DNA of 64,000 nucleotides from Nocardioides mangrovicus (GTDB taxonomy: Bacteria > Actinomycetota > Actinomycetes > Propionibacteriales > Nocardioidaceae), in the NCBI RefSeq assembly GCF_003674065.1, contig NZ_RDBE01000009.1, positions 42,813 to 106,812 on the forward strand. The letters are read 5' to 3'. Made by a program: the position numbers and the translations under genes. The notes under the pieces are model-generated. The model saw only the letters and a list, made by a program, of their open reading frames with translations. It was not told the DNA's origin and did not search any database. Positions 1 to 4,444 of this stretch are shown piece after piece (positions within the stretch are counted from its first letter, which is position 1; the number at the start of each line of letters is the position of its first letter).

Positions 1-327
1 GGCCGGCGGGCGCGACACGTAGCTGGTGTCGACGTGGAAGACGCTGCGCGGCGGTGTGGATCGGCCGACGTTGCTGATGACGTTGAGGTCGGGGTGCCCC
101 TCCAGGGGCGTCTCGCCCTCGGTGAACACCAGGTCGCCGAACCCGCGCAGCAGCGTCGTGAAGCCGTCGTCGTCGAGCGCCTGGCCTCGGGCCACGACGA
201 CGCCGTGCTCGGCCAACAGAGCTCGCAGCTCGCTCACCAGCACTGCCAGGGCGCTGCTGTCCGCCACCACGGCGGCGAGATCGACGTCGAGCCGAAGGCC
301 GAAGGGGTCCAGGGCGCTGGTCCTCAT
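1..327 (-). CDS. TauD/TfdA-like Fe(II)/2-oxoglutarate dioxygenase, 3' part outside window
   Basis: Only the first 109 codons are present; the gene runs off the left edge. It starts [11 protein letters not shown] and contains an 'LLAEHGVVVARGQ' stretch followed by HVDTSYVSRPP at about residues 99-109. This matches the first HxD metal-ligand motif of TauD/TfdA-family non-haem iron oxygenases, where H and D of HxD hold the iron. The ATG sits in an ATGA overlap with the stop of the O-methyltransferase upstream, so it is the distal known gene of the 3006-to-left-edge operon and is translationally coupled. By context it could oxidise the cyclitol made by the upstream enzymes. The substrate cannot be told from this fragment, and the second His ligand is outside the window. 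Confidence 0.72.
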   Translation of the reverse strand, partial: MRTSALDPFGLRLDVDLAAVVADSSALAVLVSELRALLAEHGVVVARGQALDDDGFTTLLRGFGDLVFTEGETPLEGHPDLNVISNVGRSTPPRSVFHVDTSYVSRPPA

Positions 328-1130
328 GCGGGCTCCGTGGGGAGGATCAGGGTCAGCCCGTCGCGCAGCGGCAGCAGCACCTGGTCGAGGCGGGGGTCCT
401 CGGCCACGGCGCGGTTGAAGGCTGCGATCGACGCGCCGTTGGCGCTGGGCTCGCCGTAGGCCCAGGGCTGACCCTGAAGCAGGGTGTTGTCGACGCAGAC
501 CAGCGCTCCCGGCGCCAGCAGGTCGAGGTCGAGCAGGGTGTGCAGGTAGCCGAGGTACCCGGCCTTGTCGGCGTCGATGAAGACGAGGTCGAAGCAGGCG
601 CTCTCGGCGCCGAGCGCACCGAGGGTCTCCAGCGCCGGGCCCAGGCGGACCTCGATGCGCTCACCGGCCGGTGTCGTCGCGAAGCACCGCTGGGCGATCT
701 CGGCGGCTCGGGTGTCGACCTCGCAGGCGACCACCCGTCCGTCGTCGGGCAGGGCCATCGCCATGGCCAGCGCCGAGTAGCCGGTGAACATGCCGATCTC
801 GAGCACGCGCCGGGCGCGGGTGGCGCGGACCAGCATCTGCAGCAGCTTGCCCTCGACGTGCCCCGAGAGCATCTCCTGCTCCAGCGGCGCCGTCCAGGCC
901 GTGGCGCGGGTCGCCGCGTCCAGGTCCTGCAGCGCGGGCGACTCCGGCCCGGCGTTCACCTCGAGGTAGGGGTCGAGGCCGGCCAGCAGCTGGTGGATCT
1001 GCGCGACCTCGGCGCGCACCTCGTCGTCGGCGATGCGCGGCAGCACCCGCGTGAGCTGCTCCACCGCGATGCCGACCGGCGTGACCGGCCGGGGGTCGTC
1101 GAGGTGATCCTCGAGGGGGCCGGCGCTCAC
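324..1130 (-). CDS. SAM-dependent O-methyltransferase, caffeoyl-CoA (family 3) type
   Basis: This 268-aa protein carries the class I SAM site [16 protein letters not shown], then [15 protein letters not shown] and [10 protein letters not shown], the signature order of cation-dependent caffeoyl-CoA O-methyltransferase-like enzymes. The same family supplies the O-methyltransferase that works with a sugar-phosphate cyclase to make 4-deoxygadusol in mycosporine pathways. The start is the GTG at 1130 inside a GTGA overlap with the cyclase stop; the 3' end overlaps the next gene by ATGA. About 60 residues precede the SAM motif, which suits the family. I infer methylation of the cyclase product. A generic catechol-type substrate remains possible. 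Confidence 0.82.
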
Positions 1131-2344
1131 GAGGGTCGAGCGCTGACCGGGTCCACGAAGACCTGTTCGCCGATCCCCCCGCGCGGGTAGCGCCGGCACG
1201 TCTCGCGGTGCGCCTCGAGGGCCGCCAGCAGCTCGTCGTGGCTCAGGTCGTCGACGAAGGTGCAGCTGCCGATGGGGTGCGGGACGGCGGCCCGCAGCCG
1301 GCCGTCGCGCGTCTGCAGGATCGCCTCGGTGCCGCGGGCGAGCAGCTCCGGTGTCAGGTGCTCGCTGTCGAGGGAGAGACCGAGCCGGCTCATGAGCCAC
1401 AAGATGCGGTCGTACTCGCTCTGCGCGATGTAGCCGCGACGGTGGGCCAGGGTCGTCGACAGTGCCATGTCGATGTTGATCGCGTGGCCGTGGAAGAACG
1501 GCGGCTCCGGCGTGAGCTCGAGCGTCGGGCTCCAGGTGTGCCCGAAGGCGATCACCCGGTCCAGCTCCAGCTCCTGGAGGTTGGGCACCTCCAGCTCCAG
1601 CATCGTGCGGATCGCCTCGTAGGTGATGCGGTCGGCGACCTCGCGCAGCTCCGGTGTGCCGTCGACGTGGCCGAACCGCGTGGTCAGCAGGTCCTCGCCG
1701 TACTTCTCCAGCAGCTCGAACACCTCGTGGTTGCCCACCACCGAGATCTTGACCAGCTCGGCCATGCCGTTGCGGACCTGCTCGACGGGCAGCGTGGCCA
1801 GGAACGAGAAGTCCAGCAGCACCTGCTGGGAGGCGTGGAAGGCGCCGAGCCGGTTCTTGGCCTTGCCGTGGTTGACCGCGACCTTGATCGCCACCGAGGC
1901 GTCGATCAGCCCGATCAGGGAGGTCGGGATGCGGATGTAGTTGGTCGAGCGGCGGAACATCGAGCAGGCGAACCCCGCGACGTCGGTGGTCAGACCGCCG
2001 CCGATCACGAGCACCGGCTCCTTGCGCACGAGCCCGAAGTCGGTGAAGGCGTCCACGATCCGCTCGGCGGTGCGCATCGTCTTGTCCTGCTCGGCGATGC
2101 GGATGGCGAACACGCGCAGCTCGATGCCGTGATGGGCGAAGTAGGCCCGCAGCCGCTCGCCGTAGAGGGCGTCGAGGTTCTCGTCGACGACGGCCAGGCA
2201 GCGGCCCCAGCTGCGGTACGCCTTCGCCAGCACGTCGCTGGCGGGGTCGAGCACGCCGTCGACAATGCGCAGGGTGTAGTCGACGGGCTGCTGCGCCCGG
2301 ACCCGGAACTCGCGGTCCTCGACCTCCAGGCCGGGAGCGCTCAC
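1127..2344 (-). CDS. Sugar-phosphate cyclase (DHQ synthase superfamily; DDGS/EEVS-like)
   Basis: The 405-aa protein belongs to the 3-dehydroquinate synthase superfamily, shown by the NAD-site block [11 protein letters not shown] (115-125), GMAELVKI (193-200), FGHTWSP (267-273) and FHGHA (284-288). E196, H269 and H285 are the likely metal ligands. It is longer than DHQ synthases (about 360 aa) and has GHTWSP where DHQ synthases have GHTFGHA. That points to the secondary-metabolite cyclases that act on sedoheptulose 7-phosphate (2-epi-5-epi-valiolone or desmethyl-4-deoxygadusol synthases). The methyltransferase directly downstream favours the desmethyl-4-deoxygadusol role. The ATG at 2344 overlaps the stop of the HAD-like gene by 4 bp. 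The exact product is inferred and needs assay. Confidence 0.85.
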
Positions 2345-3006
2345 CGGGCCTCCTCGTGGGCCGCACGTAGCTCGGCGAAGTCGAGGGAGGCCACCACCTC
2401 GACGTCGCCGAAGTCATGGTCCTCGGTGTTCTCGTTGGGGAAGGCAACGCAGGCCAGACCCGCCGCGGTGGCGGCCTCCACGCCGCCCACGTTGTCCTCG
2501 ACGGCCACCGAGCCGTCGGCGTCCTCGCCGAGCTCGTCGAGCACCGCTGCGTAGACGTCCGGGCTCGGCTTGGGGGAGTCGACCGTCGTGACGTCGGTGA
2601 TGATGTCGAAGTCGGCCTCGCCGAGGTCGTCGAGGCCGGCCAGGAGGGCGTCGATGTTCGCCCGCGACGTGGTGGTGACCAGGCCCACCGCCCAGCCGGT
2701 GTCACGGGCGGCGGCCACGCTCTCGCGGACGCCGGGCCGGGTGGTCACGCCGCCGTCGGCCAGGGAGCGCTGGAAGATCTCGGACTTGGTCTGGTGCACG
2801 GCAGCCGCGTCGACCTGCTCGCCGCGCTGGCGGGCGTAGGCCGCGATGCGGTCGGCGCCGCCGTTGCCGGTGAGGAGCCCGCGGTACTCCTCCTGGCTCC
2901 ACTCCCAGTCCAGGCCGTGCTTGACGAAGGCCTGGTTGAACGCCGAGCGCTGCAGCTCGGAGGTGTCGGCGATGGTGCTGATCGAGCCGAGGAGGAGGGC
3001 TGGCAT
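2341..3006 (-). CDS. HAD-superfamily protein with degenerate catalytic motif I
   Basis: This 221-aa protein has the layout of a beta-phosphoglucomutase/CbbY-like HAD: cap region, motif II Thr ([10 protein letters not shown]), motif III Lys (SPKPSPDVY) and acidic motif IV (VAVEDNVGG). Motif I, however, reads [11 protein letters not shown] where active enzymes have FDxDGTLxDT, so both the nucleophile and the acid/base aspartate are gone (G7 and I9). It is first in the operon and overlaps the cyclase gene by 4 bp, so a role linked to the sugar phosphate substrate or product is likely, perhaps binding or regulation rather than hydrolysis. The start ATG at 3006 was chosen because AGGAG lies 6 nt upstream; an upstream in-frame ATG at 3072 has no such site. 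Confidence 0.8.
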
Positions 3007-3051
3007 GGGGGGCTCCTGACGTCGCGGGCAAGTTCGAGAGAGTGCAGAGGT

Positions 3052-3069
3052 TTGAATCTCTGACTTCAA
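3052..3069. promoter_or_regulatory. Inverted repeat between divergent HAD-like operon and MerR regulator
   Basis: TTGAA and TTCAA arms with an 8-nt spacer lie in the divergent intergenic region (3007-3118). On the plus strand, CTGACT (3060-3065) and TATCAT (3086-3091) are separated by 20 nt, the stretched spacing typical of MerR-controlled promoters. This suggests autoregulation and control of the leftward operon by the neighbouring MerR protein, but the arms are short and the call is tentative. Confidence 0.35.
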
Positions 3070-3118
3070 CATGCTGTCTAAGAACTATCATGGCGTCTCC
3101 ATCCCGGAGGAGGTAGTG

Positions 3119-3940
3119 ATGGCGACGCCTGCATCGCCGGGCGGCCTCAGCATCGGCGACCTCGAGGCCCGGACCGGGGTCGGCGCCGCCACCGTGCGAT
3201 CGTGGGAGCAGCGGTTCGGCTTCCCCGTCCCGGCTCGCTCCGTGGGCGGTCAGCGGCGCTACACCGAGGGCCACGTCGAGCAGGTCCGGCGGCTCTTGGC
3301 CGAGCGCGAGCGCGGTCTAGGTCTCGCCGCGGCGATCGAGGTCGTCACGCGGCAGGCCGGCGGCGACCGCACGCTGTTCGCCGAGCTGCGGGCCGCGCAT
3401 CCCCAGCTCGACGTGATGACCGTGGGCCTGCGCGTCATGCGCGACCTGGCCTGGGCGATCGAGGACGAGTGCCTGGCCCGCGCGTCGCGACCTGTGCTCT
3501 GGGGCTGCTTCCAGAACGTCGCCAGCTACGAGCGTTCCGGGCGACGCTGGCGCGAGCTGGCGCGGCGCGCGCGCCGCGCCGTCGTGCTGGCCGACTTCGA
3601 GGAGACCTCCTCGCGTCCCTCGCCCGAGCGGGTGGCGCTGCCCGGCGACTCGCCCCTGCTCGAGGAATGGGGCGTGGTCTGCGAGGCCGAGGAGATCTCC
3701 GTGGTGCTGATCGGCTGGGAACGGCCACGCCGGGACGGGTCCGACCGCCGAACCTTCGAGGCCCTGGTCAGCGTGGACCCACCCGTCGTCCGCGACGCCG
3801 CGGCCCGCTATGCCCGCGCTGCCGAGGCCGGTGGTCTGCGCGGCGCCGAGCCGTCGGCGCCGACTCCCCTCGTGTCGGCCGCAGGTTCGCTGAGCTCCAT
3901 GTCGCTGCTGCGGCGCTTCGCGGTCTACACCGACCGCTGA
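3119..3940 (+). CDS. MerR-family regulator with C-terminal DICT-like sensory domain
   Basis: The 273-aa protein opens with a MerR winged-helix DNA-binding region (LSIGDLEARTGVGAATVRSWEQRF, then GGQRRYTEGHVEQVRRL, about residues 10-65). It is followed by about 190 residues resembling the DICT domain, with WGCFQNVASYE, VVLADFEE and a late 'SVVLIGWERP' strand. DICT domains are found in c-di-GMP and two-component proteins and have been predicted to respond to light-type signals. The start at 3119 is preceded by GGAGGAGG at 5 nt spacing; an in-frame ATG at 3071 lacks one. It is divergent from the cyclase/methyltransferase operon and is the obvious candidate regulator of it. Confidence 0.8.
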   Translation: MATPASPGGLSIGDLEARTGVGAATVRSWEQRFGFPVPARSVGGQRRYTEGHVEQVRRLLAERERGLGLAAAIEVVTRQAGGDRTLFAELRAAHPQLDVMTVGLRVMRDLAWAIEDECLARASRPVLWGCFQNVASYERSGRRWRELARRARRAVVLADFEETSSRPSPERVALPGDSPLLEEWGVVCEAEEISVVLIGWERPRRDGSDRRTFEALVSVDPPVVRDAAARYARAAEAGGLRGAEPSAPTPLVSAAGSLSSMSLLRRFAVYTDR

Positions 3941-3964: not shown

Positions 3965-4444
3965 TCAGTGGTGGTGCTCGAGGTCGGCGTTGGAGCGACC
4001 GGAGAGCACCGAGGTGAGCTCGGTGGCCACCGGATCGTGCTCGCGGTCGGCGTGCTCGTCGTCGACCTTGACCAGCAGCCAGTTCGCCTCGTCGCCACCC
4101 ATCCGGGTCTGGGTGAGCGCGAAGCCGCCGGTGAGCCGGTGGCCGTGCAGCTCGACCTTGACGTGGCCCCGCTCCAGCCCCGTGGCGACGTCGACGTCGC
4201 CGAGGTCGGCGTAGCTGCCGGTGTCCCACACGATCACCGTGCCCGGTCCGTCGCCCAGGCCGCTGCCCTCGACATCGGCATGGGCCAGGTCGTGGTCGCC
4301 CACGCGGTGCGCGAGCCGCTTCACCGACGGGTCGAGGGAGGGGCCCTTCGGCACCGCCCACGACACCAGCACGCCGCCGACCTCCAGTCGCAGGTCGAAG
4401 TGCAGGTTCGTCGCGTGGTGGCGCTGCACGACGAAGATCGGCAC
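3965..4444 (-). CDS. Stand-alone LigD-type 3'-phosphoesterase domain protein
   Basis: This 159-aa protein corresponds to the phosphoesterase (PE) module of LigD, the non-homologous end-joining ligase. It has FVVQRHHATNLHFDLRLE at the N-terminus, WAVPKGPSLDP, and later GTVIVWDTG and NWLLVKVDD. The His and Asp of the HHATNLHFD block are the metal/catalytic residues of the family. It starts with GTG 4 nt after the methyltransferase stop, so it is the last gene of a leftward chain. The LigD polymerase module is encoded separately at 20688-21632, and no ligase module is seen in the window. It likely trims 3' ends during double-strand break repair. The C-terminus ends in an HHH tail. Confidence 0.87.
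   Translation of the reverse strand: MPIFVVQRHHATNLHFDLRLEVGGVLVSWAVPKGPSLDPSVKRLAHRVGDHDLAHADVEGSGLGDGPGTVIVWDTGSYADLGDVDVATGLERGHVKVELHGHRLTGGFALTQTRMGGDEANWLLVKVDDEHADREHDPVATELTSVLSGRSNADLEHHH

Follow-up and report, generated by a model that had tools for sequence, protein, structure and literature searches.

A probable mycosporine-like amino acid operon of Nocardioides mangrovicus and its HAD-fold protein without catalytic aspartates

Mycosporine-like amino acids (MAAs) are built from 4-deoxygadusol, which is converted to mycosporine-glycine and then to di-substituted MAAs. In the accepted route, 4-deoxygadusol itself is formed from sedoheptulose 7-phosphate (S7P) by way of desmethyl-4-deoxygadusol (PMC4426668). 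The operon considered here lies at the left end of a 64,000-nucleotide stretch of Nocardioides mangrovicus DNA (the window; contig NZ_RDBE01000009.1, hereafter C18, positions 42813-106812, in a 4.1-Mb genome of 23 contigs) and reads HAD-mysA-mysB-tauD-mysC-mysD on the minus strand, with a gene for a MerR-DICT regulator divergent from it. The closest described systems are the actinobacterial MAA clusters of Pseudonocardia alni and Rhodococcus fascians reported with GATOR-GC in 2025, which share mysA, mysB, an ATP-grasp gene, a Ddl-like ligase gene, and genes for a HAD-fold protein and a TauD-type oxygenase (PMC11888242). The operon is of this known type, and the presence of both HAD and TauD in such clusters has been reported before; compared with the clusters described there, the MerR-DICT regulator is an addition (PMC11888242). 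The cyanobacterial shinorine clusters (mysABCD) have the core enzymes in common with it, the MysA and MysC here being 55-68% identical to those of five HAD-less loci, but usually lack HAD and TauD and carry MysH, an enzyme of PhyH type, where palythine is made (PMC10510106). MysI of Nostoc sp. UHCC 0926, likened to the TauD protein by family, belongs to the same oxygenase family and has a proposed palythine-forming chemistry; unlike the tauD gene here, it lies in a mysF-mysI-mysE group with a nonribosomal peptide synthetase (PMC10510106).

As a whole, the locus is best explained, with a probability of roughly 0.7, as a complete actinobacterial MAA cluster whose HAD protein is a non-catalytic accessory. 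By homology, MysA would cyclize S7P, MysB would methylate the product to 4-deoxygadusol, the ATP-grasp enzyme MysC would attach the first amino acid, classically glycine, and MysD would attach the second to give a shinorine-type imino-MAA. The TauD oxygenase, in which the iron-site residues are present, may then trim the amino-acid substituent to give palythine, in which case it would do the job of MysH with an oxygenase of another family. The new element is that HAD proteins of MAA loci uniformly lack the catalytic aspartates; no description of this loss or of the MerR-DICT regulator was found in the open-licence literature, and a term search of the main text of PMC11888242 gave no mention of aspartates, catalytic, phosphatase or MerR.

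The HAD protein of MAA loci

A preliminary description of this DNA rightly named the cyclase, methyltransferase and TauD-like genes of the leftward operon and overlooked its first gene, which encodes the HAD-like protein. Motif I of this protein reads G-S-I-S in place of D-x-D-x. In all 83 MAA-locus homologues (81 of them distinct, the HADs of L021/L101 and of L024/L048 being identical and from the same records) the position of the Asp nucleophile is occupied by Gly and G7 and S8 are present, while the position of the Asp acid/base, two residues on, is Ile in 81 and Leu in 2. Because both aspartates are replaced in every MAA-locus copy examined, the protein should not be a phosphatase by the HAD mechanism; it is kept by selection and predicted to fold. 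T111 and T113 (motif II), K146 (motif III), E170-D171 (motif IV) and G175 are invariant in the same 83 proteins, the cap-region residues G49, G50, R53, H71 and K74, common to CbbY-like relatives, are kept, and clade-specific switches (H19Q, S172N, Y193N, a new N117 and P190) have been added; a far outlier (L142) was left out of this comparison and of the second tree.

The top PDB sequence matches of the HAD protein are CbbY entries (4uat/4uar), its AlphaFold2 model, made from a 57-row alignment, has a predicted local distance difference test score of 95.8, and Foldseek returns CbbY 4uar as the closest fold (template modelling score, TM, 0.86). CbbY, a xylulose-1,5-bisphosphate phosphatase (4uar, 4uat, 4uau), shares with it the fold and cap (TM 0.84-0.86, 36-37% identity), the motif III Lys, the motif IV Glu-Asp and the five cap residues named above; CbbY has both motif-I aspartates, whereas the HAD protein here has neither. 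In a quick tree, one branch parts the 81 distinct MAA-locus HADs from 23 D-x-D relatives (approximate likelihood-ratio test, SH-aLRT, 97). Over 18 independent close pairs, the median ratio of nonsynonymous to synonymous substitution rates (dN/dS) of the HAD gene is 0.096 (range 0.038-0.477), which is below those of mysB (0.177), mysC (0.127), mysD (0.163) and tauD (0.184) and above that of mysA (0.053).

Relatives of the operon were found by MysC, which occurs in 7 of 396 genomes of the phylum and in 6 of 58 nearer relatives, the source genome being included in both; the named loci are the best 80 of 440 MysC relatives, which biases the survey towards actinobacteria close to the query, and the full set comprises 93 loci with at least two duplicates. 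The operon pattern is far beyond chance, as named loci from Pseudonocardia, Kineosporia, Nocardioides, Klenkia, Mycolicibacterium, Rhodococcus, Patulibacter and other taxa carry the same genes. HAD is present at 83 of the 93 loci and TauD at 83, with both at 78 and neither at 5. Counted among the TauD-positive loci is that of a Rhodococcus (L052), in which an intact HAD gene is accompanied by a tauD fragment of 207 bases (L052:12394-12600), perhaps decaying. A contig filed as Melainabacteria (L055) carries actinobacterial-type MAA genes at 72% guanine plus cytosine (GC), is likely mis-binned, and was not counted as cyanobacterial.

Five of the ten HAD-less loci are actinobacterial (L025, L045, L056, L059, L076), and in each of them the contig stops on the side where HAD would be expected; because of these cuts, the 93-locus set holds no actinobacterial locus with intact flanks and without HAD. 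The other five are cyanobacterial (L065, L077, L082, L099, L105). HAD and TauD were stated to be absent from Cyanobacteriota (PMC11888242); contrary to this, a HAD-TauD pair lies opposite the mysABCD strand in three cyanobacterial MAA loci (L073, L086, L087), and a fourth (L098) has a HAD gene alone. All four are metagenome-assembled, and their GC fractions agree (HAD 0.43-0.48 versus locus 0.41-0.50).

Outside MAA loci, the aspartates persist. Among the 396 phylum genomes, 35 HAD matches were listed and 30 were read as loci (7 MAA, 23 others), with D-x-D kept in all 23 actinobacterial relatives outside MAA loci; the genomes with a match of at least 198 bits are the seven MysC genomes and no others, and the best match after these has 103 bits. 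A HAD match (E 1e-15) is found in 65 of 292 cyanobacterial genomes, and motif I, read in 20 loci of these 65 genomes, so that weaker GSI-type copies may be missed, is Asp-x-Asp in 19 and GSIG in one (genome G518).

Proposed roles of the HAD protein and the oxygenase

Given strong selection and the retention of motifs II, III and IV and of the cap residues, the HAD protein is probably a non-catalytic accessory that binds a sugar phosphate. S7P is the obvious candidate ligand, and its binding may tune or feed the pathway. A more specific version, which we advance tentatively and at clearly less than even odds, is that actinobacterial sunscreen operons would have a dedicated pseudoenzyme, derived from a CbbY-like pentulose-bisphosphate phosphatase, with the sugar-phosphate pocket kept and catalysis lost. 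It would couple MAA synthesis to the level of S7P, whether as sensor, as carrier or as allosteric subunit, and a few cyanobacteria would share it.

Several observations weigh against this interpretation of the locus. The five HAD-less cyanobacterial loci (L077 and L082 cut less than 0.2 kb upstream of mysA, and L105 at 0.8 kb) indicate that MAA synthesis in general can do without HAD. Among the 19 MysC genomes in 146 cyanobacteria sampled, 15 are without a HAD match at E 1e-15; of the others, G524 and G532 have a D-x-D HAD, the match in G583 is unread, and G518 alone has a GSI-type protein. The GSIG-type gene of G518 (L188:9355-10053) adjoins a glgC-like gene, away from MAA genes; the genome also holds MysC with mysA-, mysB- and mysD-like genes approximately 332 kb away, and the chance that a genome with an orphan GSIG HAD would also have MysC is about 1 in 8 (19/146 sampled cyanobacteria). 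This protein is 34-36% identical to the MAA-locus HADs and groups with the GSIS HADs in the second tree (99), although the program flags its very long branch as unsafe; no other close copy was found among the 292 cyanobacterial genomes, where the next best match has 94.5 bits and the motifs of such matches were not re-read. The tauD gene of the source genome, moreover, is known only as two parts. Finally, evolutionary distances were compared over 76 rows and a second time over 72, with L020 and L023 (divergent cyclase) and TauD frames of at most 200 amino acids left out of the second comparison, and the partial correlations with HAD are 0.08 for MysA, 0.25 for MysB, 0.23 for MysC, 0.15 for MysD and 0.26 for TauD. 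MysA is not singled out by these values, and a specific HAD-MysA pair is weakened; the cyclase as partner is a guess, not favoured over other partners by the distance correlations.

The HAD protein might instead assist the TauD oxygenase, not the cyclase, as a partner or scaffold, a reading that we regard as rather unlikely. It would account for the presence of TauD at 78 of the 83 HAD loci (at L052 as a fragment only), for the finding that, in all five loci with TauD but no HAD, the contig breaks off on the side where HAD would lie, and for the joint placement of the two genes opposite mysABCD in L073, L086 and L087; the partial distance correlation of TauD is the highest of the five, but amounts to only 0.26. 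Five loci speak against it by carrying HAD without TauD (L019, L089, L095, L098, L109), since their genomes hold no close TauD (best identity 43% over a part, best score 93 bits), as does L052, where HAD stands beside a mere TauD fragment.

The chemistry assigned to the oxygenase is likewise open to a rival. Only the TauD family (PF02668) was reported for either part of the protein, with no match to the PhyH family of MysH; the H-x-D motif, here HVD, falls within window positions 1-327, and the distal His and Arg are encoded in the part past the gap. Among 72 intact TauD homologues, H90 and D92 are present in all, and H229 and R240 in 71, the remaining one having a gap. A palythine-forming role for the TauD protein has already been proposed in print, in a paper that quotes an unpublished abstract according to which shinorine, palythine and palythine-serine were the products of a Rhodococcus fascians D188 operon that includes HAD and TauD (PMC11888242); loci of other R. 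fascians strains in our set (L058, L060) carry the same genes. The quoted result argues against the idea that TauD acts elsewhere than on the amino acid of shinorine, for example by hydroxylating the ring to give a new MAA rather than palythine. That idea, which we consider doubtful, draws on the breadth of the Pfam family, on the intact homologue of L030, which among solved structures is closest in sequence to PlaO1 and phenoxypropionate-type dioxygenases, and on the status of the TauD-type MysI of cyanobacteria, itself a proposed assignment only (PMC10510106).

Less likely again is that the HAD protein is a new kind of enzyme, in which the G-S-I-S loop, together with the EDN and Thr/Lys motifs, would act on a phosphorylated sugar or an MAA without an aspartyl nucleophile. 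The uniformity of the replacement and the added clade-specific switches would suit a re-purposed site better than decay, but the Asp positions are now Gly and Ile/Leu, MAA clusters without HAD exist, and we know of no HAD chemistry that proceeds without the first Asp.

Cyclase type and predicted product

Among PDB sequences, the cyclase matches 5tpr best (567 bits); we take this entry to be the Anabaena DDGS. Next come the EEVS ValA (4p53, 272 bits) and DHQ synthases (at most 122 bits), so that the cyclase is of neither EEVS nor DHQ synthase type. It is 60-68% identical to the cyclases of the five HAD-less cyanobacterial MAA loci, the MysC protein is 55-61% identical to MysC of nine cyanobacterial MAA loci, and a MysD homologue is found in 92 of the 93 loci (the exception being L099). 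MysB, MysC and MysD alike have their homologues in cyanobacterial MAA loci. The apparent lack of an ATP-grasp gene was an artefact of the window edge: directly past the sequence gap on the left, the same strand carries genes for an ATP-grasp enzyme of mysC type and a Ddl-like ligase of mysD type. With a cyclase of the cyanobacterial MAA type and further genes of mysC and mysD type in the operon, the expected product is an MAA of the shinorine/palythine class rather than gadusol. A gadusol pathway, made up of EEVS and a methyltransferase-oxidoreductase with no amino acid ligases, to which the presence of a sugar-phosphate cyclase and a family-3 methyltransferase might point and which the preliminary description had allowed for, is rejected as highly improbable, given the far better match of the cyclase to 5tpr than to EEVS, a methyltransferase of 268 amino acids that in a Pfam search matches methyltransferase families only and is not a bifunctional methyltransferase-oxidoreductase, and the ligase genes next in the same operon. 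The broader proposal of that description, a UV protectant on a 4-deoxygadusol core tailored by a TauD- rather than a PhyH-type oxygenase, is well supported by the cyclase type and the conserved TauD iron ligands.

A divergent cyclase was also observed in three MAA-like clusters, two actinobacterial and one cyanobacterial (L020:11792-13039, L023:12490-13779, L229:13314-14486). These proteins read A-G-P-S-P-R-T-C where the window cyclase and ValA have A-x-x-x-x-K; the L020 and L229 cyclases score 260 and 302 bits to 5tpr and 190 and 214 bits to ValA, respectively. HAD lies inside the cluster in L020 and L023, and the genome of L229 holds a GSIG-type HAD elsewhere.

Layout, control region and significance

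The coordinates of the operon and its control region are collected in Table 1. The overlapping leftward arrangement of the cyclase, methyltransferase and TauD-like genes was borne out, with 4-base overlaps at the joins inside the window; stop/start overlaps join four of the five neighbouring pairs, the mysB start being a GTG at 1130 that overlaps the mysA stop, mysC overlapping tauD, and mysD starting 12 bases past mysC. A 28-N scaffold gap (C18 42785-42812), at the edge of which the window begins, splits tauD. Because the two matched parts are 84 bases apart in an intact relative (L024), the gap is probably under-sized and tauD interrupted in the assembly only. The mysC product has no Pfam match, and its NCBIfam model, NF005315, is itself labelled 'hypothetical protein'.

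Table 1. Features of the operon and its control region (window positions unless marked C18)
Feature	Position	Strand	Basis
HAD-fold, CbbY-like putative pseudophosphatase gene (221 aa)	2341..3006	-	Pfam HAD_2/Hydrolase above cut-off; first gene of operon
mysA-type sugar-phosphate cyclase, DDGS type (405 aa)	1127..2344	-	Pfam DHQ_synthase, DHQS_C
mysB-type family-3 O-methyltransferase (268 aa)	324..1130	-	Pfam Methyltransf_3 (PF01596), 174 bits
TauD/TfdA-type Fe(II)/2-oxoglutarate oxygenase, N-terminal part with H-x-D	1..327	-	Pfam TauD (PF02668)
tauD remainder, left of window past 28-N gap	C18 42400-42784	-	Pfam TauD (PF02668)
mysC-type ATP-grasp gene, outside window	C18 41081-42403	-	NCBIfam NF005315 above cut-off
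mysD-type, Ddl-like (D-Ala-D-Ala-ligase-like) gene, outside window	C18 40022-41068	-	PF07478
Divergent control region between HAD gene and merR-DICT	3007..3118	.	Start sites preceded by AGGAG and GGAGGAGGT
Operator-like imperfect palindrome TTCAACATGCTGTCTA	3065..3080	+	Comparison with L022 site TTCGACATGTTGTCGA
MerR-family regulator, C-terminal DICT sensory domain (273 aa)	3119..3940	+	Pfam MerR_1 and DICT above cut-off

The divergent regulator had been recognised correctly as a MerR-DICT protein, and is one of three DICT matches in the source genome. A match to it occurs in 10 of the 396 phylum genomes (its own included), extending over the helix-turn-helix (HTH) and DICT domains in eight and over the HTH only in two; just one of the others (G374, L022) likewise lies divergent from an MAA operon. 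With MerR-DICT at only 2 of the 93 MAA loci by tblastn, a general role as MAA regulator was rejected. Six further MerR-DICT loci were collected (L153-L158), and the four that were scanned (L154, L155, L156, L158) adjoin SRPBCC or NmrA/epimerase-type genes.

A similar palindrome stands in both MAA control regions, TTCGACATGTTGTCGA in L022 and TTCAACATGCTGTCTA at window position 3065. The latter is the sole site in the window with at most three mismatches to the former (six others have four), a rarity that is suggestive only, the pattern having been chosen after both control regions were viewed. In L158, TTCAACATCCTGTTGA lies directly upstream of the MerR-DICT gene, and no such site was seen upstream of those in L153-L157; a consensus scan of 3007-3118 found no sigma-70-like promoter. 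With the MerR photoreceptors CarH/LitR the regulator shares the MerR HTH, but carries DICT where these have a B12-binding domain: its match to the NCBIfam CarH model covers residues 7-106 only at 50 bits (cut-off 400), and a Pfam search gave no match to a B12-binding domain. A role in the response to light has been predicted for DICT (PMC8612252). Light control of the operon is plausible, and the regulator may act through the candidate palindrome on a light- or stress-linked signal.

Two neighbouring stretches were recorded in passing, namely a gene for a stand-alone LigD 3'-phosphoesterase domain (PF13298; window 3965-4444) to the right of merR-DICT, and a row of AraC-type regulator, nitrilase-like and aldoxime-dehydratase-like genes near the operon and left of the window (L003:11630-14826, equal to C18 36630-39826), named from reading the sequence.

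In the open-licence literature, only one paper describing the HAD protein of actinobacterial MAA clusters was found, and it states that the role of the protein is unresolved (PMC11888242). With both catalytic aspartates missing from the 83 copies examined, the first assumption one would make, dephosphorylation by the HAD mechanism, is ruled out, and the question becomes a direct one of which ligand the protein binds and how it affects the cyclase or the oxygenase. Heterologous MAA production usually relies on the core genes alone; for engineering, an accessory that increased flux or determined the product would be useful. Likewise, the MerR-DICT regulator and its candidate operator offer a handle on how the bacterium might switch its sunscreen on.

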